Assembly (NCBI GenBank): GCA_022539475.1
Contig: VCMS01000410.1
Coordinates: 1-38,311, forward strand
DNA: 38,311 bases
Origin: Gracilaria domingensis
Lineage: Eukaryota > Rhodophyta > Florideophyceae > Gracilariales > Gracilariaceae
Direction: 5' to 3'
A program made the translations under genes and the position numbers. This document shows positions 21,166 to 38,311 of this stretch, in pieces. The notes below the pieces were generated by a model. That model did no database searches. It was not told the DNA's origin and saw only the letters and a list, made by a program, of their open reading frames with translations. Each line of letters opens with the position of its first letter. The stretch's first letter is position 1.

Positions 21166-21205
21166 GGACCGCAAAGCTCTATAAAATTTGAGAGCTTTGC
21201 GATCC
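21166..21205. other. 15-bp stem hairpin downstream of the cysteine-rich gene
   Basis: Arms GGACCGCAAAGCTCT (21166-21180) and AGAGCTTTGCGATCC (21191-21205) pair with one G-T wobble and a 10-nt AT-rich loop. The hairpin is 165 bp after the stop, in the likely 3' untranslated or downstream region. It may be an RNA-processing structure or the trace of a small inverted repeat. Confidence 0.5.
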
Positions 21206-23380
21206 CATTTCTACAGCAAAATATAAAGATGATTCTGTTTATCTGATATTTGTTGTCGAAGAGTAAGAAATATCATGTTGCAAAATGACTTCACTCATTA
21301 AACTGAACTAGAAATATGTTGATATCTAAAGATCGTTTGAAAAGTACGAGATGAACATTGAAATAGAATAAGTTTTTCGAAAACGATTTAATATTTAAAC
21401 TAGTTTTCGTTGAAAGCTTGAATATCGGGTGTAAGAAACTATTGTCCTTTCAAAATCTTATTATTTGTAATCAAAAAATATATATGGTGGGCAATCGACA
21501 TTATGCCAAAGGTTTCTGTCTACAAATCAGGGCCGTATTTTCGACTACGACATTGAAAGGCTAAGAAGTCAAGTAGTCATGCTAATTTGGCTGTAGTCGC
21601 TCTTTTATAGTCGAAAAGTAGTCACAAGAAGCATCGAGACAAAGATCAATGGTACTTTACTCAGTTTCGGACGGAGAGCTCTCTAACACTTTGCGAGATA
21701 CTTTAATGACTGTCCGACAAACTGCTGTAGCTCTAGGATGCATCAAAGTTTGCTGTGATACCGTAAGCCTTGTGTCTCAAAGTGAACAGAAGAGCGTACA
21801 GTCACTACATTTGTGCATTCAAACTGAGCCTTCCATTCTGTCTTATCAATGCGTGCTGCATGCGTTGTTCATACGGAAAATTTGGCCTGACCCGATGAAA
21901 TCTTCGACTTCTTTTTCCAGCTCATTTGCTGCTTGTTTTCTCGCATGATCAGCTTTTGAGCATTCTCGTGCAAGACCTGAGTTAACGACGGCTGTGCTAT
22001 TTCATTTTGTAAGTGACCTTCCTTATTTAGAAGAGGAAAAGCATTTAAAGAACTCTCTGTGTTGGTCATTACCGCTGCGCTTAGTGAATGATCACAGCAT
22101 GGGTCCTGATAGAGATAAAACTTGAAAGAGTGGGCAAAGATAAACACTGTTGCATTGATCTATGTTGTAGTCGACGACGGGTTGAATTTGATTGCTCTAT
22201 AGAGCTTGTATTTCCATAGATCATCTCACGGTGCGTTCTGGTTGTCTTATGTATCAGCGCTTTAAGAAGTAAACTTCTCAAAGTAAAAGACGCAAAGCTC
22301 CTCTAGAAATTATCTTTTGATACATAACACATAATTATTTTTCTTAAAGCGTTCCATCAAGCCAAAACCACTTCTTTATTTTTTATATTAGTATTCATAA
22401 CATTAGTATATAAAGAAGCTTTTGTTCCGTGAGTGTACAAAATGTAGCTCTTCTTTATATTTTTATGTAGCATCAAGCAATTCTTTAATATATAATATAA
22501 TTTAGTTAAATATTGTTCGTGCCTTGGAATGGAGTCTGTTGGTTATAAGAGCTACTTCGGAACTCTGCCAGACCTGATAGTCTGGCAGTGACACGTGAAA
22601 ATTATTGCAAGATAGATAGAGTGTTTGTAAAAAGTACCCATTACGAAAAGGATGATTTCATGAAGAATCAATGCTTTGACTTCTTAGCTTTGAATTAGAT
22701 ATTTTTAACTTAAAAATAAAAAACAAAAGTTCTCGTACGCCACTTGAAATATTACAAAACAGAACTTTTACACATGTTTGAATTTTAATGTTGTACTGCA
22801 ACGAATAGAGCTGGAGAAAGGTAATAAATAAAAACAATACAAAGCAGAACAGCGTTTTTTGGCTGTTTGTAACTATATTTAGTGATACCTAAATATTTCG
22901 AGGTAATGCCAGAAGAAACATCTATATTTGCCTTGTACAAAACCCTTCTTTTTGGATATCATCTAAGATACATTTCCCAAATGTGTGCATGGTAGGAACT
23001 TTTTATTCTCAGGAGATCATTTGTTGGAATGGCAGTGATCGAATCACAGCAATGTTCCAAAAGAAAGGTTAAATGCGCCGTGTGACACGGCGCATATTTT
23101 AAAATAATTTTATTATAATATGAATGATACTCTGAAAAAAAAGAGATCATTCTATATATAAGCGCGCACTTTTCGTCTATATATAAGCGCGCACTTTTCG
23201 TCTGTGTACCAACAACCTGGAGAGATTACCAAAACTACTGTTATTGCTAGTATTTATTCTACCTTCGCTAAAATTGGCTTTACATTTTGAGCTAATTAGC
23301 GATTGTCCAGGCCAGTAAGAGCTTTGCAATTAATTTTTCGCCTTTTGTACTTGCAGGTCTTTTTTTGATGTATAAAAAAC
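21206..23380. other. AT-rich intergenic DNA with short ORFs and hairpins
   Basis: There is no secure gene. The minus-strand ORF 21869-22147 (92 codons) ends in a lysine/glutamine-rich stretch and is the most protein-like, but no family is recognisable. Two perfect hairpins stand out: 22565-22588 (9-bp stem CTGCCAGAC, 6-nt loop) and 23073-23095 (10-bp stem ATGCGCCGTG, 3-nt loop). A duplicated TATA unit lies at 23151-23200. Confidence 0.4.
23151..23200. repeat. 25-bp tandem duplication containing a TATA-like box
   Basis: Two exact 25-bp units lie head to tail (each TCTATATATAAGCGCGCACT plus TTTCG), and a third begins but diverges after TCTG. The TATATATAA followed by a GC-rich word looks like a duplicated core promoter. 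No strong gene follows at the expected distance. Confidence 0.65.
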
Positions 23381-23868
23381 GTGAGAATAATCAATGCGAA
23401 GGAATTTTGTTTTAAGCTTTGCAGCAGATTGGGTGCCAAAAAATCAACATGTGTGAAATATGTTCGGGACTTGACCGGAAAGAAAACTAAAGTGAAGAAT
23501 AGAAGCTATCAAAAAGATCTTGTTCTTAATTGCTTTTTTTTCAAGGCGATGATGATTGTGACGCGCATTTATATGCTGTTGCAAGCTATTGTGAAATTTT
23601 GGCTTCAGAAGGCATCTATACGACGCTTGCTTCCAAGATTCTTAGAGCATCTGCAGATCTAATCAAGGGGCTGATCTTATATGCTGAATGCAAAAAAATT
23701 AAATGGAGCAAACGCGCGATCTCACGAAAGTGTTTTACAATGATCACGTATTTGCGAGGTTTGCGTAATCGCCATAGCGAATGCGGTTCAAACGAATTCA
23801 TTGTAAGTAGCAGCGGTGTAGGGCAAGCGGAGCGGATCGATAATTTTCACGCGTTGACTATTGCCTAG
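23381..23868 (+). CDS. hypothetical protein, probably one gene broken at a T run
   Basis: Two overlapping frames are open: 23381-23662 and 23530-23868. The second reads like a protein (a D-D-D-C-D start and a helical, lysine-rich, leucine-containing body). The first reads best before the eight-T run near 23533-23540. A one-base error or real frameshift at that run would join them; an intron is also possible. The first start codon is not a normal ATG. No family is recognised. Confidence 0.3.
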
Positions 23869-24436
23869 TCGAGCACTCGCCGGAACGGTCCGGCATTTTA
23901 TTTAGTGCCAGGCGCCACAACGGGCGGCGCCACTGTGCGCCCCCGTAACGACGTGACAAACGTGGCGCGCGTTCTCTGCGCTAGCCTCGCAAGAGGTCAT
24001 TTTCGAGTAACAAAGTCTCTCGAGGCGAAGCGCAACTCTTCCCACACCACTTTGCATCTCTCATATAGAGTTGCCAAACACATAAACACATGAACATAAA
24101 AAACCGAAAAGCAACGCTTCTAAATGGCTATAAAAAAGTCATCTCTTCCAAAAGAGCGTCTTTCCGAACCTGTAGGCGTGGTGCAAACTTCAACCTCTAA
24201 ATCCATAAATGCAGTCACCTAACTACCAAACATCTCAGACCAGTAAACTCCTAAAAGCTAAGTAACACACCAAACACCCTGTAGGAAAAAAAAAAGGTAC
24301 CCTGTAGGAAAATGGAGAACGATTGTGAGACACAACAAACGTAATCATTAAACAAAGCTACCTACGAGATAACATGCGAAAACAAGAAAAGACAAACAAA
24401 CATAAAGAACAGTTAGATTAGTTTGTGGCCCCAACA
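23869..24436. repeat. probable 3' LTR of the copia element, outer end unresolved
   Basis: On the minus strand the copia pol is followed by a GAGGAGAAT purine tract and then TGTTGGGGCC, a usual copia LTR start. This puts the inner LTR edge at 24436. The outer edge cannot be set because the second LTR is outside the window. Inside there is a repeat of ACCCTGTAGGAAAA near 24278 and 24298. Some of the span may be host DNA. Confidence 0.4.
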
Positions 24437-24464
24437 ATTCTCCTCAGAACGAGTCAAGATGCAT

Positions 24465-25019
24465 CTAGCTGACCAATCTCCTTATATTAGTGAGGGATGC
24501 ACACCTTTTCTTATAGTCAGCGATCCTTAGACTCCTTGGAATGAGCAGCAACTTAATAATGTTTTCAGCAAAAATATCTCTCACATAGGGCATCTTCAAG
24601 TCAATATCCTTGTTGCGACCAGAGATCTGAGGATTCGTAGTGAGTGAAAGTGCAGCCGAGCTTTCCAGTAGAGTCTCTCTAGGCTCATACCAGAACTCTT
24701 CGCTCCAAGGCTGTTGGTGTGCGAATTCACAAAACATCTTTCGGACCCATGTGATGTTCTTTGCGCTTGTCGAAAGAGCCACATACTCTGTTTCTGCGGA
24801 CGAGAGAGCAATGACGGTCTGACACTTCGAGTTCCACATGATTGGTGCGTCGGTGACGACGATTACGTACCCAGTAGTAGACCTTCGAGTCTCTATACAT
24901 CCCCCCCAATCGGCGCCAGCGTATGCAGGAAGTGAGGCGGGAGCAATGGAAATGTTCGATCGGTAGTGCAGTCCGTAGTCCAATGTACCAGCCACATACC
25001 TGAAGAGACGCTGAAGCAA
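24465..25019 (-). pseudogene. copia RNase H
   Basis: The frame starts in the RT/RNase H connection (R-Y-V-A-G-T-L-D-Y-G-L). It contains A-G-A-D-W-G-G-C and S-S-A-E-T-E-Y, the standard copia RNase H motifs with catalytic D and E present. It ends at 24465 shortly before the purine tract. This is the best preserved domain of the element. Confidence 0.85.
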
Positions 25020-25941
25020 GGAAAAGTGGCGCTCGCGCCATTGTGAAGATGCTTCGAAAGAGCCGAAACTGGGAAAGAAAGATCCGGCCTTGTAGATACA
25101 GCCATGTAGAGAAGTCCACCAATTCCTGCCCTATAGTTAGCATGATCTACTGTAGAGAGAGCTTGCTCGTCCTCACTTGTCGGGAGTAAGTTGGCAACGT
25201 ATGGGAAGGGAGACTGCACGGTGTTGCATCGTTCCATGCTAAACTTCTTAAGCAGTTGTACCGCATATCCATACTGCGTAACCTTTATGCCAAGTGGAGA
25301 GCGTTGGATACTCCAGCCAATGAAAGACTTGAGCTCACCATACAGCTTCACGTCAAAGGTCGCCACGAGTCGTTCCTTGAAGTATGTCAGTAGGTCGACG
25401 CTGTTCGCGGCAAAGGCGCAGTCGTCAACGATTACTGCGACTAGAATAAAACGGTCTTCCTCACGGTACATGAAGAATCGTGAGTCGAGAGCCGATGTCA
25501 CGAATCCTCATGATAGAAGTGTGTCCGAAAAGAGGGAGCCCCAGATAATCCCAGCTCGGACAGCACCGTAGAGAGAGTTCAGTAGTTTGCAGACGTGACC
25601 GGGTTTTGGCTTGGATGCCTGTGGAGTCGGTTGCCTGTTCCATGATGATTGGAACATCCAGTTTGCCATAGAGGTACACGTTCGAAATGTCAGCTCCTTC
25701 CGGTATAAGGTTCTCCTCAGCCGAGACGGCTAAGAGAATACGAAGAGCTTCGTGGCAGGCAACAGGAGCGTAAGTGTTGTGTAGATCGAAGTCGATGAAT
25801 GGCTTCTGCTTGTCTCCCCGTAGACAGCAACGTGCCTTCTTCAAGAACTTCTTTCCAATACCATCGAGCATTTTCTCCTTGAAGACCCAAGTGTATGGCA
25901 CGGGTTTCATCCAAGTTTCGCGAGGGATGTGTTCCCATGTC
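24893..25941 (-). pseudogene. copia reverse transcriptase in two frames
   Basis: Fragment 25461-25941 begins with the P-Y-T-W-V-F-K-E-K region and continues to the R-C-C-L-R-G motif and the catalytic aspartate region (G-A-D-I-S-N-V-Y-L). Fragment 24893-25501 continues in another frame with the I-V-D-D catalytic box and the S-F-I-G-W motif. The two overlap near 25500 at a one-base break. Another break near 25025 leads into RNase H; the last 40 codons of the second fragment are out of frame. Confidence 0.83.
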
Positions 25942-26019
25942 GTGTGAAGCTATTGACCGAGAAATGAATGCCTTGGTCCGGCGACCAAGGCATTCATTTC
26001 TCGGTCAATAGCTTCACAC
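25942..26019. repeat. perfect 37-bp inverted repeat with a 4-nt loop inside copia pol
   Basis: Arms 25942-25978 and 25983-26019 are exact reverse complements around CGGC. The right arm is the genuine pol sequence (it encodes E-A-I-D-R-E-M-N-A-L-V on -). The left arm is an inverted copy placed between this and the downstream pol sequence. It ends the integrase frame and therefore arose after, or caused, element death. Confidence 0.85.
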
Positions 26020-27191
26020 CATCCTGGATCTCTGCACACTTCTTTGAAGGAATGCGGTACAGATGGGTCGTCGAGTGTCTTTTTTGAGACCCAGATCCGG
26101 CGGAAGTTGTGCGTAATGGTCGTGAAAGCTTTCACAAGATGCTCCTCCAAGTCCGTTCTCTCTGCATCCGGCTGTTCAGTTGGCTCCACCTCCGCTTCTT
26201 CTGCCTCTTGTTGTCTCGTGATACCTTCAAGGAGGCTTGATATGTTGGGGAGTGGAGAGAAGTTGACCGGCTTGAAGTCCAAGTTCCGACACGTCACGAC
26301 AGAGTTCATCTCTGGAACGAAGACGCGGAACAGTGTGTTGTCACTCTGCATGCCAACGAAGTGCGAGAGCACGGAGCGTGGGAGGAACTTTTTGTTTGGG
26401 ACCGTTTTCGAGCGGTAGACGAACGCATAGCCGGGCTGTCCGAAGTTCGGAATATGGGAGAAGTCGATCTTCGTCGATGGGTCCCACTCCAACATTGGAA
26501 TCCGTCCCTTGATGCGTGAGGACGGTGCCCGGTTTCGAAGCCAGTTCGCGTGCTTCATGGCCTCGGCCCAAAAGGATATGGGCAGCTTGCTCGCAAAGAG
26601 AAGAACGCGAGTCCGCGTCCAATGCTTTTGGATGACCCTCACGGCAGCCCCGTTTGATTCGGAGGCGTATGCCGGAGAGGAGTCCATTTTGATGCCTCTG
26701 TCGCGGCAAAATACATCCAACTCGTTGCTCTTGTGTTCACCTGCCCCGTCCAGGCGAACATTCTTGGGTCGGAGCGAGTGGTTGAGCTCGAGTTTCGAGC
26801 GGCGCTTATACCATTCAATGTTCTTCAGGACAGATGCACCTGTCTTGTCCATGAGAAAGGACACGTCCGACTTTGAAGTGTAGTCGTCCAGAACGGCCAT
26901 AGCGTAGATAGCGCCAGAGAGAAAAGGCGAGATCTTGCCAGACAGCTCCATATGAATAAGCTCCAATGGGCTTGAGGTGGAGACAGACCTTGGCCTAGCG
27001 ATGAGCGGATTGCGCTTCATCTTGCCGGTGAGACATGGGACGCAAGTTAAGGACTCAAGGATAGAGCGCTGGAAGAAAGGAACGGAATCCAAGGCCTTTG
27101 CCAAGTTCTGATATCTACTTGGGTGCAGATGACCAGTTCGTCCATGCCAGTCGAGAGCTAGTTCTTGTTTGGTGTTGCTGGCATTCACGAC
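25950..27191 (-). pseudogene. copia GAG-pre-integrase and integrase (inactive)
   Basis: The reading frame enters directly from the LTR boundary. An HHCC zinc region (W-H-G-R-T-G-H then C-V-P-C) precedes the integrase core. Of the usual D-D-E triad only the middle aspartate is clear (V-R-L-D-G-A-G-E). The first position reads H-M-E-L-S-G, with E for the usual D. The last reads S-N-G-A-A-V-R, with V where E is expected. The frame ends in a palindrome at 25942-26019, just as RT should begin. Family known, inactivity inferred from the residues. Confidence 0.85.
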
Positions 27192-27492
27192 TGTGGTATA
27201 GCCGATCGGTGCGAGCTGCTAGTGGGGAGCCCTGCGTGGGCTCGACCCGGCGGAGGAGTGAAACACGTGACACCTAATAGGGCAGCACCCACCGTTGCCT
27301 ATAGTGCACGGTGACCAAGTGGTAAATACGCCTGCACTGGTGTGCGGCAGGCACGTATAACCCTCGAGGTCAGCAAAACTATTAGAGGACTACTAGACTT
27401 ACCAATTGGTGACTGTAGAACCGAACTGGTGTCAAATTAGCCTAGTTGGTGCTTGACTTTACCATTTGGTGTGGGAGGTTGGCGTCTCGGGG

Positions 27493-28417
27493 GTTTAGTA
27501 CACCCGAGCGCCCCTCCGGCTCTCACGGGCCTAGTGCCACGTGGGCCACCGGGAGGTGCATTTGTGGTGCATCACCCCGGCCACATATCTACACTACCTA
27601 GTAAATATTAATTCTAAATTAACGAGAATAAACTAATTAGTCTTGTCCAAGCCTGCGCTTGCGCGTCCCCCGTGGTACAGGAGGCACACGTGCCCGGGAG
27701 CCCGTGACGTCACCACTTGGTCTTGTAGAGCCCCCGTTGATCTGGCCGAGCTATACTACAGACCCCCCTCCTACCGACAGGCACGCCCCGTGGCTGCGAA
27801 GTTCCCACGGCGGTTGCCGCCTTTTCGCCAAACGGTCGTTGGCGCGCGTCGCCTGGCGCACAACACGTCTCGCGATGACGCGGAGACGGCGCGGTGCACG
27901 GCGCGGCTCGCCACATGCCCTGCAGCACCATTACCCACGCCGCCGTACCCCCTGTGGTAGGTACGACCGTACCTTGCATCCCTCGTGGTATTGGAACGCG
28001 AACCCGCGAACCGCGACCATTCAGGTTGATCTTGTCGCGCGCCTGGTACCACGTGGTTGTCTTCGCCTCTTCGGTCCCTCCCGGAGGAGTCCGCCACTCC
28101 ATCTTCCCCTGTCCGTCCTCCCCCTGGGCGGGTTAGTCCCGGCTTACCAGTTGGTTTCGAGCTTCCCGTCGGTGGGGTTCGTAGTTGTCGACCGATCGGC
28201 ACACGGCCCCCTCGTGGTGGTTGTGACTTCTCGTGTTCCCGAAACTCGTGCAGCCTGCGCACCAATCTGGTCGTTTTCACGGTGTGTCAGCTCACTCGAG
28301 CGTGCGAGTTCTCCGTGACCCCTCAGGTCTCATCTGTCATCCAAGTGGTGGTGTTCCCCTTTCCAATTGGTGTCCTCCGTGGCGCGCTCTCGCTCCATTC
28401 CGCTCCTTTCATACCCC
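27493..28417 (+). promoter_or_regulatory. LTR segment upstream of the antisense ORF, candidate + promoter
   Basis: The segment includes an AT-rich stretch at about 27590-27645 (AAATATTAATTCTAAATTAA) that could hold a + start site, then about 770 bp of GC-rich leader. Five CCANNTGG palindromes lie in it (27713, 28049, 28147, 28341, 28363). Short arginine/proline-rich ORFs here look like shadows. The promoter role is inferred from position only. Confidence 0.3.
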
Positions 28418-31144
28418 ATGGGTGAACGACCAGCCTCCCCAACGGGGTGGTCAATGACGTTCGAACGCCGTGAAGACGAAACTGAAGAGACTACCGCTCC
28501 CTCTCCTTCCAATATGGTAGATCACGGGGACGAAGCAGCGCCGCTTCAGTCGAGTTACCACACGGTTGAACCTTTGCAGCTCTATCTGCCATGCCAGGCC
28601 GGTACACCCGTGTCCATTCCATCGGGCGCTGAGGCCCCCGTGGTGGCCAACCAATTGGTACTGGATGAGCCGCACTACGACCCTATAAAGGGATATTCCG
28701 CTTCTGAAGTTTCCCCCTCATCGGAAGCCACCCGCTCGGTTCGCGAAACCGCTGTCGCCCGGTCGAGGATGTCCGGCAAAACCCCTGGGGTGGCGCGCGG
28801 CCGTGGCGGTGGCATCTTCAAACCCAACACGCGGTCGAGTACACGCGCTCGTCAAGATCCGTACGGTCGCGGTGGGTATGATCCTTATGCGGCCGCCGCC
28901 GGTCCGAGCAGCGTCAACCCTCTTGCGGTCGCTGGTACGGTGGAAGCTCAACAGCTGAATCCTCATGACCTTAACAGGACGCACGGGCAGCCGCATGCCC
29001 ACTATGGTGCGCGATTTGCTGATGTCTCTACCGAGTTGGTCGCTCTGGGGAACTGGCCTTTCCACATCAGTTCCTCCTTCTGCCCCTTGCGGTTTCGCCA
29101 CATGAGTCTGCAGCAGTATACTACGATTGCTCGTTGGGATTGTCGCCGCTTGGAGGCGGTGCCTATGGCGCCTCCTCCACCACGCAAGGGCGAGAAGCAG
29201 AGCCGGTTCGGTCGACAACAGTGTTTCCATGCGCGGCAGCGGCACACGAAGTTCCTGTACTATATCCCCGTGGCCATACCGTCGGATCTCCCCTTCATCC
29301 GCTGCGATGGGGAGGTCCACTACTTTCGCCGTTTGGTCGATATCCTTCACCGCTTGGACGAACCTGCTACCCATATCGAGGTCGATCTGGATTACGTCGC
29401 GTTCGAGCGCCCTTTAGATACCAACTATTGGACCGACCGTGGGAGGTGGGCGACCGATGCGATGGCTGAGAGCCGTGTTCGTCACCGTAACAACCGTACG
29501 AGGACCATGTTCCTGTTCCACAACGTTGAGTATTGGTCGCAGAGCGACCAGAACCGCCGGGCATGGTATGTCAATCGACCCTCTTGGTGGGACCACTATG
29601 AAGTATGCCAGTGGCTGGAAGTGCCGACCCCGCCGGTCCTTGCGTACTTTGGTAGTAGCATCTCCCTCGATAGGAACAACGCATATGCCGTTTGGTCGGT
29701 CGCGCGCAGCGAGTGGGCCGTCATGGTGGCTATCCTCGCCCTTCAGGCTTCCGTGGAAGGTGTGACTTGGGACACGCGTTGCCCTGACAAGTCTGTCGGG
29801 ATCAGCGGAACTCAACCAGTTGGTCGTATCTTCAACATTCCCAACGATGTGGTCGGCGACATTCGTGCCATGGGGCTCTCCAACATCGTGGAGGGCACCA
29901 AATATACTGCGCAGCAGTTGGATGGTTACCTCACTGCGGTAAGTAACCACAATTGGGGGCCTGAACAGGGTTGGGATGTCTACGACCCGGAGGTTCATAG
30001 CATCGTGCCTCTCCCACAGCAGCACATGGCTGGCGAAGACCCATTTGGTAATGACGATACCGTGATGGTGGCTGCCGAGAACTATGAGTCCCCCGCATTG
30101 CCTCCGTCGGCACCTGTACAGGCTACTCCTCCGACCAGCGTGGCTGCGCCTGTTCCAAGTGGTCCGGCGAACCCTCAGGCGACTGCTCACCCTCCCGGAC
30201 GGGCTGCCCAGGGGCCTCTTCGGGTTGGTTTCCAGTCGCTTCCGGTGAATCCGGTGCCCCCTGGTGGTGATAGTGGCGCGATACGGAGCGCTCTGGCTCG
30301 TCTCAACCACGCCTCGATGGTGCACTTCAACCGTCCTGGTCCAAATGACATCCTCACCGCTGTGGATACTCTTACCAACTTGCTCCCCGTGGTTGCTCAC
30401 CACGAGCGGCGCACTTCTGAACTGCGACAGTTCCGCGACTACTTCCAGCGCAATCTCTACCGTGAGGTGACAGCCTATGTTGGTCAGTTGAGCAACCTTG
30501 TGGAAGGCCACGCGCCGTTACATCGACCCCCGGTGGAAAGTTTCAACCCGTACGCTCCTGCGTCACAGCAACCTGCGACCCCAATGGTAGGCTTTGGTGG
30601 CCTTGGTACGTATCAACTCCCTGATGGACCTCCTGGTGGTGATTCTTCGGCACCTTTCCATACTCCGCTTGGTCCTCACAACGTTCCTCTTCCTCCAGCA
30701 AGTACTGGGACAGGAGCACCAAGTGGTTTCTCAACTGGTTTCCGTTCGGCTCCGCTTCCGCCGACGTCCGGTGCTCCTAGGCCGCCTACTGGTCTGACCC
30801 CCGGTGCAGGGCCGTCTAGTGGTCTTGCTCCTCCGACCTCTGGTGGCATCCCTCCGTCTAGCTTACCGCCTTCCTTCCATCCACCCACTGGTCCTGCGAA
30901 TACCATGCCGGTAGTCAGCAGCGGTACCCCTGCGGGACCTGCTGGTACTTCTGCTCCCTTACCAAGTGGTGGTGCGCCACCGAGCGCGGCTAGCGGCGGG
31001 GGCGGAAGCTCCGCCGGACCTATGTCGGTGTCCTCTGGTCGTGGAGGTTCCGCTTCATCTCGCGGGACCTCCCGTGGACGTGGTCGCGGTCGTGGAACCA
31101 GTCGTGGACGCGGACGTGGCCGTGGGTCCTCCAAGGCCTCCTAA
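28418..31144 (+). CDS. 908-aa ORF of unknown function, antisense to gag-pol, inside the LTR
   Basis: The ORF is uninterrupted although gag-pol beside it has many frame breaks. The ATG at 28418 lies in CCATGG, a favourable context; the frame is open 17 codons further up without an ATG. The N-terminal third is polar and disordered. A globular, tryptophan- and tyrosine-rich middle (about residues 215-545) has F-L-Y-Y-I-P-V-A-I-P and W-S-V-A-R-S-E-W-A-V. A long proline/glycine/serine-rich region follows, then a C-terminal R-G-R-G repeat typical of RNA-binding tails. AATAAA lies 38 bp after the stop. Antisense ORFs are known between pol and the 3' LTR in some plant gypsy elements. I recognise no family here. 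Confidence 0.7.
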   Translation: MGERPASPTGWSMTFERREDETEETTAPSPSNMVDHGDEAAPLQSSYHTVEPLQLYLPCQAGTPVSIPSGAEAPVVANQLVLDEPHYDPIKGYSASEVSPSSEATRSVRETAVARSRMSGKTPGVARGRGGGIFKPNTRSSTRARQDPYGRGGYDPYAAAAGPSSVNPLAVAGTVEAQQLNPHDLNRTHGQPHAHYGARFADVSTELVALGNWPFHISSSFCPLRFRHMSLQQYTTIARWDCRRLEAVPMAPPPPRKGEKQSRFGRQQCFHARQRHTKFLYYIPVAIPSDLPFIRCDGEVHYFRRLVDILHRLDEPATHIEVDLDYVAFERPLDTNYWTDRGRWATDAMAESRVRHRNNRTRTMFLFHNVEYWSQSDQNRRAWYVNRPSWWDHYEVCQWLEVPTPPVLAYFGSSISLDRNNAYAVWSVARSEWAVMVAILALQASVEGVTWDTRCPDKSVGISGTQPVGRIFNIPNDVVGDIRAMGLSNIVEGTKYTAQQLDGYLTAVSNHNWGPEQGWDVYDPEVHSIVPLPQQHMAGEDPFGNDDTVMVAAENYESPALPPSAPVQATPPTSVAAPVPSGPANPQATAHPPGRAAQGPLRVGFQSLPVNPVPPGGDSGAIRSALARLNHASMVHFNRPGPNDILTAVDTLTNLLPVVAHHERRTSELRQFRDYFQRNLYREVTAYVGQLSNLVEGHAPLHRPPVESFNPYAPASQQPATPMVGFGGLGTYQLPDGPPGGDSSAPFHTPLGPHNVPLPPASTGTGAPSGFSTGFRSAPLPPTSGAPRPPTGLTPGAGPSSGLAPPTSGGIPPSSLPPSFHPPTGPANTMPVVSSGTPAGPAGTSAPLPSGGAPPSAASGGGGSSAGPMSVSSGRGGSASSRGTSRGRGRGRGTSRGRGRGRGSSKAS

Positions 31145-31182
31145 GTCACCTCGTGGTTCCCTCTCGTGGATTCTTCTCGACT

Positions 31183-31188
31183 AATAAA
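31183..31188 (+). terminator. poly(A) signal AATAAA for the antisense ORF
   Basis: AATAAA lies 38 bp downstream of the TAA stop of the 908-aa ORF, followed by a GT- and T-rich stretch (GTGTCTTGCGTTGTGATC). This suits 3'-end formation for a + strand transcript that stops before the convergent pol. Confidence 0.6.
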
Positions 31189-31282
31189 GTGTCTTGCGTT
31201 GTGATCTCTGATCTTCTCTGTTTCCTGTTAGGTTAGTTAGTTAGCTTTTCGTGTAGCGTGGCGTTCAACGGCTTCGATAACA

Positions 31283-31295
31283 CCCCCCCCCTTCC
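31283..31295 (-). other. polypurine tract of element 2
   Basis: On - the tract reads GGAAGGGGGGGGG, directly after the pol stop codon and directly before TGTTATCG. It is the expected primer site for plus-strand DNA synthesis and fixes the proposed LTR edge. Confidence 0.65.
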
Positions 31296-33998
31296 TTAGC
31301 GACGCGTACCACGCGAAGCAATACCAGTTGGTGGGGGCGTTCGCCCTTGTTTGCGCCAGTATCGGATGATGAAGTTGTTAGGGATATGACCAGGTGGTTC
31401 CATAGAGTCGTACTCGGGCGACCATCCATACCATCTTACCCGGTAGCGCATACCCTTTGTGGTGTGTTCGTGACCTACAATGGTGTCAATAGCGCACTCC
31501 TGAGTGTCTACTTGAGGGTGTGACTCTTCCATTTGGTCATGGGGTGCGTGGCTCCCCGTGGTGGGTGTGACCCGTTGGTCTTGCGGAGGGTCGATCTCCT
31601 GTGCCGTTTGGGTCGTGGGGTCAGCCGTTACGGCTCTGGTGGAAGGTTGACCGCTCGGCTGACTCATCATAGGAGGGTGTATGGGAGACGTTTGCTCCCT
31701 CTCCGCTTCCTGCTGCGTTGGCTCACCTATTGGTTGTGCATTCGCTGTCGTCGGTTGTGCGGCCTTGACAATCCTGTCGATGGAGACCGTGTTCTCCAAA
31801 CCTTCCATTATGACCGTAGCGGTATGCTCGTCGGAGCGAATCACCTTGTATGGTCCCGTGGACTTGGGTAGTAGTTTAGAATTGATATCCTCCTCAAGGC
31901 GGATGTCCTCTTCCATCTCCGCTGGGGTTGGTCGCTTACCTTTTGGTGGCACGTCGAGGAAGACCATGTCTCCTGCTACCACTTTGGTCACTTTGCTCAC
32001 CGTTCGGTCATAGTCCGCTTTATACCGTTCTTGGGCTGCTGTCATCTTAACTTTGGCAGCAGCCAAAGCGGCGCGTAACTTCTGGAGTATGTCTCTCTTG
32101 ACCTTCGCCGGTGTGAGTGTCCCGGCCGCTTCCGAGCGGTCAGGTCCGGGCTGGACGATAATACCATGTGGTGTTCGCGAAAGTACCAGGTCGAATGGGG
32201 TTGTTTGAGTGACCCTGTGGACCTGGAGGTTGTACGCATATGTCAATAGTTGGACATACTCCGACCATGTGGTTTGGTGCTCTTCGACGTAGTGCCGTAG
32301 GCGTGCCACTAGGGTCTTATTGAAGCGTTCCACTTGGCCGTTTGTTTGCGGATGATAGGCCGTGGTAAAGTAGTGCTTGACCCCTAGCATTGTACAAACC
32401 GCCTCGAAGAACTTAGAAGCTAGGTTCGAACCGTTATCGGTCAGTAGGTACATGGGAGCACCGTACGGGTAGACCCAATTCTCCAGGAAGGCTGTCGCTA
32501 GTGTCGTTGCCGTTTGGTTCTTCAGGGGTATGGCTCTGGTGAGCTTTGTGAACCTGTCGGTTATGACTACTACAAAGCGATAACCCTCTGAGGTCTTGGG
32601 CAGGGGCCCCAGTATGTCGATTGCTACGAATTCCAGGGGCCCCGCCGCCGGGAATAGCTTCAGGTACTTCCGGTGCTTCGCCACACCACCTCGGGTCTTA
32701 ATGCACGAATTGCATTGCGCCACATAGGTATATACATCGTTAGCCATATGCGGCCAGTAGAATTGCCTCCGAAGGGTATAGTACAACCGCGTGGCTCCAG
32801 GGTGCCCCGAAAGCCGTGGATTGTGTGACAGATATAACACCCTTTGTCTTAATGACTCAGGTACGACCTTCTGGAGAGCTCCGTCTAAAGGTGAGCGTCT
32901 GATGAGGTACCCATTGTGGTCGACGTCGAAATGAGAATCCTTCCTTCCAAGTACGTCAGCGAGCGTTTTGCACAACCTATCGATCGATTGTTGGCGTAAG
33001 AATTCCTCACGGGTGATTGGAGCGTGTTCCCCTTCCTCCACAGGAAGGAGGGTCTCCACTACCACTTGGTACGTACTGTCATCATGCCAATATCCCTTCA
33101 GAACTTCATTGACCTCGTGGTTAGCTAGTTCTATAGTAAAGCATGGGATGTCGTCGTCCACTGGGTCAGCGTCCAATCCTTCGGTATTCAACCGGGACAA
33201 TGCATCCGCCACTCGGTGCTTGACCCCGGGGCGGTACTGCACATCGTACTCAAACTCCGAGAGTCTCAGACGCCATCGGGCCAGACGACCCGATGCGTCC
33301 GCCAAGCCTAATATCCACCTCAAGGAGTCGTGATCCGTTCGGAGCGTGAAGCGCACACCATATAGGTAAGGACGTAGCATGAGCATGCTCCAAACAACCG
33401 CTAGGCATTCCTTCTCCGTTACGGTGTAGTTCTGCTCCGCTTGGTTAAGAGCTCTACTCCAATACCCAATTGGTGCGAGCTTGCCGTCCTCCTGTTCCTG
33501 CATTAGGCAGCAACCTATTTGGGCGTCCGACGCATCCGTGTCCAGTGTATACGGGAGTCCCGTTTTGGGCAATGCCAGTACCGGTGGGGAGAGAAGCGCT
33601 GCTTTCAATGTATAGAACGCCTCTACCTCGTCCTCTTCCAGGTGGTCAAAGTGTGTGGGCTGCCCCTTCTGCAACCTCCGGTTCAAGGGTGCGGCTATAT
33701 TTGCAAAACCCTTGATGAACCGCCGGTAGACGTTGCATAGACCTATAAAGGATCGTATGTCCGTTTGCGACGTAGGGAGCTTCGCTTCCTGTACCGCTCG
33801 GATATTCCGTTTGGTCACCTCGAGTTTCCCAGGGCTTATTGTATGCCCTAGGTACTCTACCTCTTGGTTGAAGAACATACACTTTCGTAGTTTGAGGGTC
33901 ACGCCTGCCTCTTGTAGCAACTGCAGTACCACTTGGACGTGCGAGAAGTGCTCCTCTATGGACCTCGAGTAGATGACTACGTCATCTATGTATACCAA
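31296..33998 (-). CDS. pol: pol of element 2: RT C-terminus, RNase H, integrase, chromodomain
   Basis: This is a 900-codon frame. It starts in RT at Y-I-D-D-V-V-I-Y-S, in the same frame as the fragment above it and separated by one stop codon. RNase H shows T-L-D-T-D-A-S-D, E-K-E-C-L-A-V and R-T-D-H-D-S-L. Integrase has the HHCC zinc domain (G-H-P-G-A then C-N-S-C) and a complete D-D-E core (V-A-I-D-I-L-G-P, L-T-D-N-G-S, N-G-Q-V-E-R-F). The last 65 codons (about 31341-31493) form a chromodomain: I-V-G-H then Y-R-V-R-W-Y-G-W-S-P-E-Y-D-S. Chromodomains steer chromovirus integration toward particular chromatin. Confidence 0.92.
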   Translation of the reverse strand: MVYIDDVVIYSRSIEEHFSHVQVVLQLLQEAGVTLKLRKCMFFNQEVEYLGHTISPGKLEVTKRNIRAVQEAKLPTSQTDIRSFIGLCNVYRRFIKGFANIAAPLNRRLQKGQPTHFDHLEEDEVEAFYTLKAALLSPPVLALPKTGLPYTLDTDASDAQIGCCLMQEQEDGKLAPIGYWSRALNQAEQNYTVTEKECLAVVWSMLMLRPYLYGVRFTLRTDHDSLRWILGLADASGRLARWRLRLSEFEYDVQYRPGVKHRVADALSRLNTEGLDADPVDDDIPCFTIELANHEVNEVLKGYWHDDSTYQVVVETLLPVEEGEHAPITREEFLRQQSIDRLCKTLADVLGRKDSHFDVDHNGYLIRRSPLDGALQKVVPESLRQRVLYLSHNPRLSGHPGATRLYYTLRRQFYWPHMANDVYTYVAQCNSCIKTRGGVAKHRKYLKLFPAAGPLEFVAIDILGPLPKTSEGYRFVVVITDRFTKLTRAIPLKNQTATTLATAFLENWVYPYGAPMYLLTDNGSNLASKFFEAVCTMLGVKHYFTTAYHPQTNGQVERFNKTLVARLRHYVEEHQTTWSEYVQLLTYAYNLQVHRVTQTTPFDLVLSRTPHGIIVQPGPDRSEAAGTLTPAKVKRDILQKLRAALAAAKVKMTAAQERYKADYDRTVSKVTKVVAGDMVFLDVPPKGKRPTPAEMEEDIRLEEDINSKLLPKSTGPYKVIRSDEHTATVIMEGLENTVSIDRIVKAAQPTTANAQPIGEPTQQEAEREQTSPIHPPMMSQPSGQPSTRAVTADPTTQTAQEIDPPQDQRVTPTTGSHAPHDQMEESHPQVDTQECAIDTIVGHEHTTKGMRYRVRWYGWSPEYDSMEPPGHIPNNFIIRYWRKQGRTPPPTGIASRGTRR

Positions 33999-34007
33999 TG
34001 CGGTTGT

Positions 34008-34685
34008 CTACTTCACTTTAGACAGTATGATGTCTAACGCCCTTTGGAAGGTAGCGGGGGCATTTCTTAAACCAAACGGCATGCGTAAGAAGCGATACAG
34101 GCCTGCGTGGCATGTAAACGCAGTCTTATCACGGTCACCCTCTGGTATTTCGATCTGCCAATACCCGCAGTTGGCGTCCAGTGTGGTAAAGATGTTCGCA
34201 TCTCCTAGGGAGTCGATGCATTCATCCATCCTCGGGATGGGGTACGAGTCCCTTACCGTTACGGCATTAAGTTTTCTGTAGTCAATACAGAACCTCATAC
34301 GGGTCTCTCCTCGTTTTTGGACTAGCACTACAGGGCTAGCCCATTCCGAGTTTGCCGGTTCTATAACCCCCTCGCGGAGCATCCGCTCTACCTCCTCCAG
34401 CTCTACCTCACGGGCCTTATGTCCCGCGCGGTATGGCTGTTGGTGGATGGGACGGGAGTCCGGTTTGAGGTCAATCCTGTGCTGGGTGGCCTTAATGGCT
34501 CCCAGCTTACCCGACCACATGGTACTGAATGGCTCCAGGAGTCCAAGGATCCGAGCTCTGAGCTCTTCCCCTTCAAGTCCTATATTCACCTCCGTCTTCC
34601 AATTGGTCACTGGGTCGAGCTCCAGTTTCTGGTCTTCTCGCTCAGCTAGTCGCTGCACCATATGGTCTGTTCGCGACGAATTCAA
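34008..34685 (-). CDS. reverse transcriptase N-terminal part of element 2
   Basis: This has the RT fingers and palm with standard gypsy motifs: R-x-x-P-Y-R entry, M-R-F-C-I-D-Y-R-K-L-N, the first catalytic aspartate in F-T-T-L-D-A-N-C-G-Y-W-Q-I, and M-P-F-G-L-R-N-A-P-A-T-F-Q-R. It ends with TAG at 34008-34010, in frame with the pol ORF that resumes with Y-I-D-D. The stop occupies a position that is usually tryptophan in relatives, so a TGG-to-TAG change is likely. Upstream the frame is open back to the TAA at 34710. Confidence 0.88.
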   Translation of the reverse strand: MNSSRTDHMVQRLAEREDQKLELDPVTNWKTEVNIGLEGEELRARILGLLEPFSTMWSGKLGAIKATQHRIDLKPDSRPIHQQPYRAGHKAREVELEEVERMLREGVIEPANSEWASPVVLVQKRGETRMRFCIDYRKLNAVTVRDSYPIPRMDECIDSLGDANIFTTLDANCGYWQIEIPEGDRDKTAFTCHAGLYRFLRMPFGLRNAPATFQRALDIILSKVK

Positions 34686-34698
34686 CGAATTGACACTG

Positions 34699-34712
34699 CC
34701 CCCCCTTCCTTA
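34699..34712 (-). other. second polypurine tract with stop codon, candidate central PPT
   Basis: On - the sequence GCTAAGGAAGGGGGGG matches the end of pol and its PPT (31289-31300), including the stop codon. Here it lies in frame between the protease-side frame and RT. Similarity continues on the far side (TTCAACG on + near 31264 and 34681), so more than the G run is shared. Confidence 0.5.
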
Positions 34713-35009
34713 GCATCCACGACTCGTGGGACCATTGTGGTATAATCGTAAAGATCGTACGGGGAGCCGGTAAGGCAAGACAATTACGGTGTGTTTTGGC
34801 AACTTGACCGGGCGGTTGCTGAAGTTACTGAGGTAGACCTGAAACGGTTTTGTCGGTATGTTGTCGACTATACCATTCGCCATTAAGGTCATGTGTCGTT
34901 CGGCCAACCGTGAATGGTTCTGAATGGATAACAGGCCAGGTTGTTGGCATGTGACCTTCACTACCAAGTGGTTCATAGGCGGTATTGTTACAGCCTTTGC
35001 CAATCGCAC
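34710..35009 (-). CDS. protease-to-RT connector of element 2
   Basis: This open frame carries the segment between protease and RT, with V-K-L-P-K-H-T-V-I-V-L-P-type sequence that gypsy elements often have just after the protease. It overlaps the end of the protease frame by 22 bases, so a one-base break lies near 35000-35050. It ends at the TAA that begins the second purine tract and is in frame with RT. Confidence 0.7.
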   Translation of the reverse strand: MRLAKAVTIPPMNHLVVKVTCQQPGLLSIQNHSRLAERHMTLMANGIVDNIPTKPFQVYLSNFSNRPVKLPKHTVIVLPYRLPVRSLRLYHNGPTSRGC

Positions 35010-35734
35010 CTTGTTGGAGAGTGTGTTTTCCGGGACCGGTTGGTGTTGAGTGCGGTTCTCTTTCGTAGAGGCACCCTTGTGGTTACCAATAATGGCGATC
35101 CGGGGGCCATTATGGAACAGAACTGTCTTAGAACGTGGAAAATTGCCCTGACATGCTGGTCTATAAAAGTTGTTCCAAGGATACAGTCTGTTGCCAGTTG
35201 GTTAACGACTATGAAGCGAACTCGGACCCTCATGGTGTCAATCAATACCATTATGGTAAGCGCTCCCATGACGGTTAGTGGTCTGTTGTTGGCGTCAACC
35301 AGTGGGTTAGTTAATGTACATGGCTGAAGCTTATTAAGTTGTCTGTTAGTTAATAGTTTGGCATTCACCAGATTAGGTCCTGCCCCGGTGTCCAGGACAG
35401 TGACGCATGGTACCAAGTGGTTAGAAGTAAACCCGAGGGTGACGTTTACCTTATAGTTACTATGCTTGAGAAAGCATATCGGTTCGGTGCCGTCCATGAG
35501 GCTCTCCTCCCCTGTAACCAATGGGTAATTGTCCATACTTGCACCACTTGGTTCTGGAAGGCCTTCCGTCTTCGGACAGTTGGGGAAGGCCTCTATCCCA
35601 ACTGTTCGGCGTTTTCCGCCTGCGGGCGGGATCCGTTTGGTCCTGCTCCGTGACGAGGTGTACCTGATGAGGTGTGGCTGCATTGGGTCGCGCATTTGCG
35701 TGTCCCGTGCCTGCGCTCCGTGCCGGGGGCCCAA
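34988..35734 (-). CDS. retropepsin-type aspartic protease of element 2
   Basis: The catalytic motif V-L-D-T-G-A-G-P-N-L-V is followed by a flap region and D-C-I-L-G-T-T-F-I-D, both usual in Ty3/gypsy proteases. The N-terminal 80 codons overlap the gag zinc-knuckle frame and may not all be translated in this frame. The last 25 codons appear to be out of frame. Confidence 0.85.
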   Translation of the reverse strand: MGPRHGAQARDTQMRDPMQPHLIRYTSSRSRTKRIPPAGGKRRTVGIEAFPNCPKTEGLPEPSGASMDNYPLVTGEESLMDGTEPICFLKHSNYKVNVTLGFTSNHLVPCVTVLDTGAGPNLVNAKLLTNRQLNKLQPCTLTNPLVDANNRPLTVMGALTIMVLIDTMRVRVRFIVVNQLATDCILGTTFIDQHVRAIFHVLRQFCSIMAPGSPLLVTTRVPLRKRTALNTNRSRKTHSPTRCDWQRL

Positions 35735-36185
35735 ATATATCCTGGTGGTTCTGCTGGCGAGCAGTCAGGAGAGCGTTCCTGTTCTGCGGAGCCACACTTG
35801 GGCACGCTGTTGCCAAGTGGTGGGGCGACAAACAGAACCAACAGAGGAGATTGCCGGTTGTGGGGTCCTTCATCGCGAGCGACGACGCGCGCGATGGGGG
35901 ACGGCCTCCAGTAGGTACTGCACTCCGTTGCTGCGGGTATGGTCCTTGTTCACCATATTGCTTGAATGGTACCGCTAGGACCGGGCTGACCGGTACGGAT
36001 ACCTGTGATGGTGGAGCTGAGGTTTGTCTTGAGGGTGGCTCGCTGGATAGCGAGCTGGACCAAGAGGTATTACCGTGCGATCGAGTTGTCGGTTGTGCAT
36101 GCACCAAGTGGACTGGGTGACCCTGGGAGGCGTATTGTGTGGACGCCTCCCCCGTAGTGGTCTCCTCTTCCTCTACGTCAAACAC
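35460..36185 (-). CDS. gag C-terminal part of element 2, CCHC zinc knuckle
   Basis: This fragment begins at an acidic stretch (D-V-E-E-E-E-T-T) and carries one CX2CX4HX4C zinc knuckle at about 35802-35843 (C-W-F-C-L-S-P-H-H-L-A-T-A-C), the nucleocapsid RNA-binding motif. It continues in a different frame from the capsid part, with a break near 36230, and probably changes frame to protease near 35640. Confidence 0.82.
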   Translation of the reverse strand: MFDVEEEETTTGEASTQYASQGHPVHLVHAQPTTRSHGNTSWSSSLSSEPPSRQTSAPPSQVSVPVSPVLAVPFKQYGEQGPYPQQRSAVPTGGRPPSRASSLAMKDPTTGNLLCWFCLSPHHLATACPSVAPQNRNALLTARQQNHQDIFGPPARSAGTGHANARPNAATPHQVHLVTEQDQTDPARRRKTPNSWDRGLPQLSEDGRPSRTKWCKYGQLPIGYRGGEPHGRHRTDMLSQA

Positions 36186-36795
36186 TGACCGCCTGGTCTT
36201 TCCTTTCTCCTTCGATGGTTTGCCGAGTGGTGCGGAGTCTTTCCTGGCCCTGACCGAACGGTGTCGCCTAGTCCCTGTGCATGGCGGGCTAGTGCGTTGT
36301 AGTCGACCGTGCGGTTGGTCGCTAGGTAGTTACGAACCTGTGATCGGATAGACTTCGCCACGTTGTCGGCGTACATCGATTTCAACCTTTTGGTAGTAAA
36401 GACGCTTCCACAGCGGGAGGCTAATGCCCATAAGGAGCGAGCGAATTCCAATTCGGTTTGTCCCGCGCGCTGGCGGTACGCAAGCACCTCTGCGTACGCC
36501 TCCTGGATTACCTCATCGGTCGCGTAGGTTTCCAGTAGGAAGTTAACCACCTGTGGGTATGTTGTCAACATTTCCGTTTGGTCTTCGTCCACCGCCATGG
36601 TGTTCCCTTGGAGGCGGCTGTGGAGCAACGCTCCAGCCTGACCAGTTAGGTAAAATTGAAACAGCCACATGGCTGCTGCCTCTGAAAACCCATTCTGATC
36701 ACAAGCGATCTTGAACCTTTGAAGGAAATCAATGACCGCAATAGGGTCATCCCCGCTAAAGCGAGTTTCACCAGTTGGAAACGAAGCTTCCTATG
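36173..36795 (-). CDS. gag capsid core of element 2 (retrotransposon gag domain)
   Basis: The frame is open from about 36795, well before the first ATG at 36670. It contains the typical retrotransposon gag pattern: F-S-G-D-D-P followed by F-L-Q-R-F-K, then M-W-L-F-Q-F-Y-L-T-G-Q-A. The helical second half (Q-T-E-L-E-F-A-R-S-L-W) is also usual. The last 20 codons are out of frame. This is one protein with the fragments on either side. Confidence 0.85.
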
Positions 36796-37611
36796 ATGCT
36801 TCGTTATCTTCTGAGCTACCTCTTTGGTATACTCAGCCTGTCTGTTCTCTAACCTATAGGTACGATAGTCGACCGCTTTGGTGAATAAATCATTGAGCAG
36901 TGTAAGCACCTCTAGGTCAGTCTCCTCGTCGGAAGTTGAGTCCGAATCGTTTATACCTTTTGGTCTTACCCTTGCGGGGATTCTTTCCTTTCTTCTTGCG
37001 AGAGTCCTTCCTCTTGCGTCGTGAACCTGTACGGTCGTCGTCTCCTGACGAATCCGAATCGGTGTCTGAGGACGAAGAGTCCGAGTCCGACCGGCGACTC
37101 TTTCTCTTTCCCCTTTTGGTTTCTTCTTCTTACCATTTGGTTTACGTCGACGCTCGTCTCCTGAGCTCGACGAATCTCCATCAGGGTCTCCACCACTTGG
37201 TCCTGACGGAGCTACACCAGTAGGTTGGGGGAGGTAAACATACCTCGGGCCCTCCATCCCTGGAGGCTCTGCCCCTTTCCCCATACGGTCGATAAATCCT
37301 TCACCAGTCCGGTTTGTAGGAAGGTTAGGGTGGAGAATACCAAGTGGTTTGGTGGCGTCTACTGCAGGCGGAGGAGCTTGCTTCATGAGCGCGGCCTGGG
37401 CCACCATCTCAGGTTGAAGCTTAGCCCCCTGCTGCTGCAGAGCCAGCATAACCAATCGGTCGATGTGTCCTCGCACCTCGTTTTCGAGGTACTGTAACAC
37501 CACCACAGGTACCTTGTCGAGGACCTCCTGGGAGGCTCGATCAACTACCACTCGGGTGACCTCGTCCAAGTCCAGTCGCGGTCCGACTGGCACCTCCATT
37601 TGGTCTACCAC
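36646..37611 (-). CDS. gag: gag N-terminal part of element 2
   Basis: The frame starts at the codon for 37611 (GTG; the first ATG is five codons later). It is open upstream to about 37750 without an obvious ATG, so the true start is uncertain. The product has helical N-terminal segments, a long serine/aspartate and lysine/arginine-rich disordered middle, and an acidic stretch. The frame is right until about 36790, after which it diverges from the capsid core in the next frame. Confidence 0.75.
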   Translation of the reverse strand: MVDQMEVPVGPRLDLDEVTRVVVDRASQEVLDKVPVVVLQYLENEVRGHIDRLVMLALQQQGAKLQPEMVAQAALMKQAPPPAVDATKPLGILHPNLPTNRTGEGFIDRMGKGAEPPGMEGPRYVYLPQPTGVAPSGPSGGDPDGDSSSSGDERRRKPNGKKKKPKGERERVAGRTRTLRPQTPIRIRQETTTVQVHDARGRTLARRKERIPARVRPKGINDSDSTSDEETDLEVLTLLNDLFTKAVDYRTYRLENRQAEYTKEVAQKITKHHRKLRFQLVKLALAGMTLLRSLISFKGSRSLVIRMGFQRQQPCGCFNFT

Positions 37612-37993
37612 TGGGGTTGTTACCAGGAGCGGGCTCCGCCCTTGCGGAGCCTGCTCCTCCGTCCACTTGGTCAGCCCGGGGAAGGGTCGAGGGGCCCCAG
37701 CCTCTCGGTCTACCTTCTTCCCCCTCGGTGGGCGTTCTTCCGAATCAGGTCCTCCGGGTTATCCAACACCGGATAGGACACTGAACCCCGTATGGGGTGA
37801 CCACTTGGTGGAGCGCGCTCCGTGCGCCTATTTTGGGATAGCGGCCGCCGCCGTTATCTCCATTTCAGGTAACTGGCGCTCGGAGCCAATTGCTTCGGCA
37901 ACGAGAACCAACACTCGGTATCCAGGTGATTCCAAATCCTTGCTTCCCTAAAAACCACTTGGTATCAAAATATCTATAGTCGGGAACAAAATA
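37612..37993 (-). other. 5' leader of element 2 between LTR and gag
   Basis: This is about 380 bp between the LTR and the first gag codon used here. It contains four CCANNTGG palindromes nearby or inside (37596, 37663, 37801, 37955). I could not find a convincing TGG-type primer-binding site directly next to the LTR edge at 37994. Confidence 0.5.
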
Positions 37994-38311
37994 TGTGGTA
38001 TATTATTACATGGCCGATCGGTGCGAGCTGGTAGTGGGGAGCCCTGCGATGGGGCTCGACCGCGGAGGAGTGAACACGTGACACCTAATAAGGTCCGGAG
38101 CACCCACCGTTGCCTAAGGTGCACGGTGACAAGTGGTAATACGCCTGCAAACTAGGGTCGTGCGCAGGCACCGTATAACGTCGAAGGTCAAAAACTATTA
38201 GAGCGACTACTTAGAGATTAGCCAATTGGGGACTGTAGAACCGAACTGGTGTGCAAATTAGCCTAGTTGGTGCTTGACTTTAAACCATTTGGTGGTGTGG
38301 AGGTTGGCGTC
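37994..38311 (-). repeat. 5' LTR of element 2, partial (cut by window end)
   Basis: This aligns with 27192-27487: it shares TGTGGTATA, GCCGATCGGTGCGAGCT, CACGTGACACCTAATA and GACTGTAGAACCGAACTGGT. It carries many small differences, including a 10-bp insertion near 38001-38010. Divergence is clearly greater than between the LTRs of element 1, so element 2 is older or this end is poorly called. Confidence 0.85.

Follow-up and report, generated by a model that had tools for sequence, protein, structure and literature searches.

Structure of the element

The window analysed is an entire contig (C410; 38,311 nucleotides) of the Gracilaria domingensis assembly, and the genome searched comprised 77.9 Mb in 680 contigs. 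Positions 27192..38311 contain a chromodomain-bearing LTR retrotransposon of the gypsy type, which is coded on the minus strand and truncated by the contig end; it consists of an LTR, a leader, an antisense open reading frame (ORF), pol, protease, a gag side, and part of the second LTR. The first LTR (27192..27760, TGTGGTATAG...CTATACTACA) is followed by a stretch (27761..28318) that leads to the antisense ORF. The latter is located between pol and the LTR on the strand opposite to pol (28418..31141, plus strand; 908 aa from the first Met) and is part of an open frame of 941 codons (28319-31141). The pol frame (31299..34709, minus strand) encodes reverse transcriptase, RNase H, integrase, and chromodomain, and contains a stop between 34007 and 34011. 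Reverse transcriptase, RNase H, and integrase core were matched by Pfam above cut-off, as was the chromodomain (Chromo, E 8.6e-6, 26.0 bits vs a cut-off of 25.1). LTRs, reverse transcriptase, RNase H, integrase, and a C-terminal chromodomain were all found, and the chromodomain gypsy class was assigned from these Pfam domains and the LTRs.

Upstream of pol in the coding direction, an aspartic-protease-like ORF (34991..35764, minus strand) gave a Pfam match under the curated cut-off. The gag-like ORF (36176..36790, minus strand) was labelled by eye and position, as the Pfam search for Gag returned no match above cut-off; its neighbouring frame (35460-36329) shows a CCHC-like stretch by eye. It is overlapped by a further gag-side ORF of 370 aa (36649..37758, minus strand), likewise with no family above cut-off. 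Only part of the second LTR (38010..38311) precedes the contig end; it shares 86% identity with the first and differs by numerous small indels, which are probably due to poor sequence quality at this end.

A second copy of the family (C4:147824-159204) has an LTR of 572 bp and represents a young insertion, because no difference between its LTRs was seen over the 477 bp compared (100% identity) and a target-site duplication of 5 bp is present. The window family is young and numerous: at least 40 scored genome matches were obtained with a 1.5-kb DNA query and at least 143 matches, fragments included, with part of the antisense protein, both numbers being lower bounds for places, not copy numbers.

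A bipartite palindrome throughout the element

The initial annotation had reported at least 43 and 26 occurrences of two nested palindromic words. By direct count, CCANNTGG occurs 45 times and ACCANNTGGT 26 times in 27192-38311 (45 and 24 complete sites, respectively, in 27315-38292), and CCANNTGG is present at all ten positions that had been given as examples. Expected numbers had been set too low (2.7 and 0.17), as 300 dinucleotide shuffles resulted in means of 4.1 (maximum 10) and 0.22 (maximum 2); the large excess nevertheless stands.

The CCANNTGG word is the commonest form of a broader motif, ACC-N(4-7)-GGT, of which the element (27192-38311) holds 125 sites. Spacers of 4, 5, 6, and 7 nucleotides were counted 59, 36, 19, and 11 times, and the remaining spacers between 0 and 15 between 0 and 9 times each, i.e., a minimum length followed by a decaying tail, while the opposite orientation (GGT-N-ACC) was flat at 3 to 11 per spacer. 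In a scan of triplet pairs at spacings 0-39, ACC-N4-GGT ranked top (59 vs 8.0 expected), and other 3-bp stems with a spacer of 4 reached at most 11. Lone ACC/GGT triplets are also above shuffles in this C+G rich element.

Sites are found at 6-15 per kb in each part measured (LTR, leader, antisense ORF, pol, and gag side): 7 are located in the first LTR (with 5 CCANNTGG sites), 5 in the stretch between LTR and antisense ORF, 27 in the antisense open frame, 32 in pol, 11 in the protease-like ORF, 10 in the gag-like ORF, and 18 in the further gag-side ORF. Examples are ACCAAGTGGT in the LTR (27314..27323), which is the most frequent 10-mer in the element (12 times, counting both orientations), ACCAGTTGGT within the antisense ORF (29815..29824), and ACCACTTGGT within pol (33061..33070). 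Gaps between CCANNTGG sites were indistinguishable from random placement (P 0.28). Occurrence in all three codon phases, as noted previously, was recovered with 28, 30, and 22 of the starts of 80 ACC-N(4-7)-GGT sites in five coding segments. For the LTR site pair at 27402 and 38222, which had been described as shared, CCAATTGG is kept in both copies, but the A/T flanks are lost at 38222.

The remainder of the contig is poor in these words. Positions 1-11604, a separate element for which about two sites had been noted, contain 3 CCANNTGG and no ACCANNTGGT, and positions 11605-27191 contain 6 and none. On contig C1, 11 ACCANNTGGT were counted in 789,604 bases. Genome-wide, ACCANNTGGT occurs 4164 times vs 1620 for the reversed control word, an excess that would be of the size expected from about a hundred copies.

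Related families and their spellings

Relatives were retrieved by searching the same genome with the antisense-ORF and pol proteins. Twenty-two stretches were fetched, of which L043 and L044 represent parts of the LTRs of the C4 copy; the others were profiled for CC-Nk-GG or flanked forms. Counting L049, L051, and L052 as one family, this resulted in eight antisense-ORF families plus family X (L042, L045, and L046). In this genome, a homologous antisense ORF thus occurs in eight or more related gypsy families, each of which is enriched, and at least five spellings are in use (ACC-N4-GGT, ACC-N6-GGT, CCG-N2-CGG, CCG-N4-CGG, and CC-N3-GG), with several families sharing one spelling.

In the window family, ACC-N4-GGT prevails, followed by N5, N6, and N7, and L035, L036, L037, L039, and L040 are alike. 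L038 (pol 70% aa identity) has 21 ACC-N5-GGT and 13 with N4, and family X uses N4 or N5 (35 and 46 in L042). L041 (62% aa identity in pol, 31% in the antisense ORF by tblastn) displayed no ACC..GGT excess in its spacing profile and is instead enriched in CCG-N2-CGG (31 vs 8.1) with a tail to N3-N4, the same spelling being found in L047 (24 vs 4.8) and L048 (35 vs 2.8). CCG-N4-CGG was counted 31, 39, and 24 times in L049, L051, and L052, respectively, vs about 5, with N3 and N5 as well, and L050 carries CC-N3-GG (73 vs 26.5). L055 and L056, two stretches overlapping by 0.5 kb, have 12 and 14 ACC-N6-GGT. Enriched spacings cover 3-4 lengths in most families. Two further observations concern single relatives: L047 shows a second enriched spacing (CCG-N7-CGG, 16 vs 4.8; CCGT-N5-ACGG, 7 vs 0.4), and L041 contains a 377-bp tandem duplication (L041:2654-3407, 99.5% identical) that spans the end of the antisense ORF.

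Such a density was not reached in the other DNA examined. No comparable excess was detected in window positions 1-11604 and 11605-27191, in L053 and L054 (two distant gypsies with 31-34% aa identity in pol, 5 kb read), or in four 3-kb stretches of C1 around single sites, with the highest control z at 2.7 vs 3.9 to 14.2 in the motif families. L055 had been chosen as a third distant control, but its pol turned out to be 47-50% identical, and it carries ACC-N6-GGT (z 5.4); the adjoining stretch, read after the motif had been seen, contains an antisense ORF of 621 codons (tblastn 25.5% identity to that of the window, E 1e-8).

Coding constraint and conservation of half-sites

Synonymous-codon shuffles yielded means of 8.1, 8.1, and 5.6 ACC-N(4-7)-GGT sites for the antisense ORF, the main pol segment, and the gag-side ORF, in which 27, 28, and 18 sites are observed. 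Control spacings were not raised in the same segments (9 vs 12.2, 11 vs 10.0, and 3 vs 3.5, respectively), and three shorter segments had 4 sites vs 1.5, 11 vs 2.9, and 10 vs 2.2. A stricter shuffle that also kept codon-boundary dinucleotides increased the means of the three long segments to 9.7, 11.0, and 7.4 only; it scarcely moves the three shortest segments and is uninformative there. The initial annotation had argued that protein constraint does not explain the sites and had proposed codon-preserving shuffles as a check; both versions of the shuffle fell short of the observed counts, in agreement with that argument. Across the families, enrichment over synonymous shuffles was found in 14 of 14 segments at z 2.5 to 12.7. 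The lowest value belongs to L050 (observed 32, maximum of 300 shuffles 33); in the L056 antisense ORF 19 sites were found vs 5.4, and in L055 pol other spacings were likewise above shuffles (32 vs 14.6).

Divergence was determined against L035, L036, and L040, each about 88% identical to the window element. Half-sites differed at 3.7-4.1%, other positions at 12-13%, and unpaired ACC/GGT triplets at 11-13%; restricted to third codon positions, the values were 5-6% for half-sites, 19-21% for spacers, and 23-24% elsewhere. The effect was weaker with the closer relatives L037 (p 0.007 vs other positions, 0.08 vs unpaired ACC/GGT) and L039 (p 0.037 and 0.31, respectively). Within other families, half-sites were lower at third positions between L051 and L052, both in pol (3/32 vs 99/271) and in the antisense ORF (5/21 vs 105/159). 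No third-position effect was seen between L051 and L049 in pol or in a poorly matching pol piece of L052 (24% aa identity), and p was 0.06 for the antisense ORF of L051 vs L049. In family X beyond pol, where no long ORF is present, 19 of 258 half-site positions differ vs 372 of 2248 elsewhere, and 28 of 203 in spacers.

Variation among close copies was assessed in 29 copies, which belong to the top-scoring part of 40 matches scored from 138 candidates and cover positions 27500-32000. With all variants pooled, half-site avoidance was not significant (9.6% vs 12.1%, p 0.25), and variants present in 2-9 copies showed none (3.7% vs 2.8%, p 0.35). Private mutations, i.e., those in one copy of the 29, hit half-sites at the normal rate (4.8% vs 4.4%), whereas differences common to at least 10 copies avoid them (3/272, 1.1%, vs 197/4019, 4.9%; p 0.0016). 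Hence, the sites mutate normally and are kept, i.e., they are under selection.

Tolerated changes and flanking positions

In the window family, changes of the middle C to A are raised (ratio 2.0 in the left and 2.45 in the right half-site), and every change at the inner C is underrepresented (0.15-0.54 on the left, 0.18-0.28 on the right). For the L049 group, the middle C to G (1.44/1.57) and the inner G to C (2.25/2.54) are raised. This mirror symmetry is clearest in the window and L049 groups and uneven in the X and L041/L048 groups. Variants with a mismatch (AAC..GGT and its mirror ACC..GTT) are raised in the window family, while those with a wobble pair (ACT..GGT and its mirror) are depleted; a mismatch is thus allowed where a wobble pair is not, which makes base pairing between the half-sites an improbable target of conservation. 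The mirrored tolerance points to two like subunits on duplex DNA, which would explain it best.

Flanks were examined at positions -1/+1 for sites of the window element, L041, L042, L045, and L047-L052. Watson-Crick extension of the palindrome is avoided (105/658 vs 166.6 expected, z -5.8), whereas control stems show a Watson-Crick excess (784/2733 vs 686.9). A model with a pairing term fitted the flanks better than one of mixed orientations in three of four groups (summed -lnL 1682.4 vs 1690.2), with a tie in the window family (339.0 and 338.9). Simple dimer binding would not lead one to expect this avoidance of Watson-Crick pairs.

Antisense ORF and family X

The antisense product of the window element has a conserved domain at about residues 205-600 and an RG-rich tail. 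In a full alignment of eight, antisense ORFs were 23-29% identical to that of the window. No match to the domain was obtained in Pfam, PDB sequences, or folds; the whole ORF had no Pfam family at E<=0.1, including TRP28 (PF04195), and a search of 12 domain sequences against Pfam gave two stray matches only, from one member each. A fairly good structure model was obtained for the domain of L051 (mean pLDDT 72.2, pTM 0.79), with no match in PDB or viral structures. The domain of the window copy is slightly acidic (37 K+R, 45 D+E).

An antisense ORF is present in ten motif-bearing locus types (window, L038 with two broken frames, L041, L047-L052, and L056), and conversely every antisense-ORF locus type profiled carries the motif. 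It was not found in the stretches of L042, L045, and L046 that were read (tblastn with ten antisense-ORF pieces at E 0.01; best value 0.029, inside pol). In family X the density of the motif is nevertheless undiminished, also beyond pol in the stretch without long ORFs, and the pol frame is open (1087 aa in L042). Since X has the motif without a recognisable antisense ORF, it would have to borrow the factor, unless a different protein is the reader; family X is a possible dependant on another family's factor.

Candidate readers of the motif

The elements appear to be covered along their whole length by candidate sites at which a factor of the element, not of the host, would bind DNA sequence-specifically and with two-fold symmetry. 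Each site would be composed of two half-sites (ACC or CCG and the complement) that face each other across a short spacer, the preferred length of which goes with the family. The factor is presumably element-encoded, because five spellings in one nucleus would be too many for one host factor. Judged from sequence, the leading candidate reader is most likely the antisense-ORF protein, which is favoured because it is present in every motif family examined except X. The factor is predicted to let each family recognise its own chromatin along the entire element, most likely countering silencing as VANC does in Arabidopsis, because for a promoter function sites close to the LTR would be enough. The word would then be written through synonymous positions of gag, pol, and the binding protein's own gene. 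Whether such an element-owned, two-fold symmetric factor, likely the antisense-ORF protein, marks its family, likely for anti-silencing, is in our estimation evenly poised. A wider proposal is put forward tentatively, at a confidence below even: a clade-wide, antisense-encoded dimeric protein of new fold may read tens to more than 100 bipartite palindromes per element, co-evolving half-sites and spacers may form private chromatin codes, and families lacking the ORF, such as X, may be served in trans. Against the antisense-ORF protein as reader stand family X, the slight acidity of the domain in the window copy, and its failure to match anything in Pfam, PDB sequences, or folds, and spacings spread over 3-4 lengths are unusual for a DNA dimer.

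A different protein of the element, such as the chromodomain-bearing integrase or Gag, might read the sites instead, for self-targeting, cDNA coating, or packaging. The open pol and the motif of family X, which has no recognisable antisense ORF, would suit this explanation, and pol also varies among families (62% aa identity between the window and the L041 family); the presence of the motif in all ten antisense-ORF locus types profiled counts against it, and we regard it as unlikely. The two proteins are not separated by L049 and L051, which share the motif, because their pol segment is near-identical (94% over 326 codons). The sites could also act as short hairpins, in RNA or in a single strand, with a stem of fixed length, e.g., as dispersed packaging signals bound by Gag. 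Their self-complementarity, the minimum spacer with its decaying tail, the avoided Watson-Crick extension with control stems in excess, and the better fit of the pairing term at the flanks are all in line with hairpins. However, the window family favours mismatch over wobble variants, other 3-bp stems are far below ACC..GGT at spacer 4, and the loops of CCG-N2-CGG and CCA-N1-TGG would be too short for RNA, which makes hairpins improbable in our assessment. RNA packaging had been among the roles suggested initially; it is weakened by mirrored mismatches without wobble, and the avoidance of Watson-Crick extension leaves it some room.

An E-box-like reading with a host bHLH-type factor had been suggested as well, and the commonest form indeed contains CANNTG. 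Sites with N5-N7 are nevertheless enriched and do not require CANNTG, and this genome harbours sister families with other spellings and spacings (CCG-N2-CGG, CCG-N4-CGG, or CC-N3-GG), so that a host factor driving the sites is very unlikely and the E-box reading is not supported. A CANNTG core as a requirement was rejected, being dispensable in N5-N7 sites and in the CCG families. Codon bias, composition, or a mutational process without function would be compatible with the raised lone ACC/GGT triplets, the C+G richness of the element, and the non-significant result for pooled variants in the 29 copies. Such an origin is considered extremely unlikely given the roughly threefold excess over synonymous shuffles in the long segments (27 vs 8.1, 28 vs 8.1, and 18 vs 5.6), the flat counts at other spacings and in reverse orientation, the normal rate of private mutations with avoidance of half-sites by widely shared differences, and the conservation of half-sites in family X beyond pol, where no long ORF is found.

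Comparison with known systems

VANDALs are DNA transposons, and the parallel to VANDAL and VANC drawn by the initial annotation proved apt insofar as related families carry different versions of a motif. VANC21 binds YAGTATTAY, and targets of VANC6 carry AGTTGTCC/AGTTGTAC; protein and motif evolve together, the effect spans the whole element, and VANDAL motifs are non-coding tandem repeats, with coding probes bound much less by VANC21 (PMC5735166, PMC10398659). The present families resemble this system in that related mobile elements bear different short DNA motifs, each enriched in its own family vs other DNA examined. They are unlike it in being LTR retrotransposons with palindromic half-sites and a variable spacer, and their putative binding sites are dispersed, about as dense in coding DNA, and kept at third codon positions. 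The antisense product had no Pfam match, so that no homology to VANC was indicated in this comparison via Pfam. By analogy, the pattern would work like VANC-type self-recognition but lacks two defining features tested, namely non-coding tandem repeats and a VANC-homologous protein of a DNA transposon.

Retand LTR retrotransposons of plants have antisense ORFs between pol and the 3' LTR, i.e., in the same place as here, with function unknown; these mostly encode a TRP28 domain predicted to be DNA-binding, and the parts of the article available mention family-specific tandem repeats and, as far as seen, no dispersed palindrome (PMC11963269). Retand belongs to a non-chromovirus plant lineage, and its TRP28 domain has no counterpart among the Pfam results given above. 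The oomycete elements Chronos and Archon are gypsy elements; in Chronos, pol ends in a chromodomain, like that of the window element, and an additional archaeal-type RNase H is present (PMC5348765), which is not among the Pfam matches of the window pol; the word "antisense" does not occur in the main text of that paper. No description of dispersed palindromes in the coding DNA of LTR elements was found in the literature searched, which is not proof of absence.

If true, the proposed reading would show that sequence-specific self-recognition is not confined to DNA transposons, the VANC case, but also operates in LTR retrotransposons, where synonymous sites of the coding sequence would carry the code. 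It would also give a testable role to a kind of antisense ORF that has been puzzling in plant elements. One genome with at least eight families, several spellings, and homologous candidate binders represents a natural experiment on the co-evolution of protein-DNA specificity and spacer, and the motif signature can be used for finding such systems elsewhere.

Other features of the window

A reverse-strand frame at 25950-27218 resembles a copia-type pol by eye and adjoins the LTR, an arrangement that insertion of the element at this place would produce. At 12594-15553, long frames that overlap on the two strands are enclosed by inverted repeats, the arms of which measure 62-109 nt, lie 2.0-2.8 kb apart, and are 85-95% complementary. 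The interval 242-11604 contains direct repeats at a distance of 9.2 kb (97-100% identical in blocks), apparently the LTRs of another, motif-free element.
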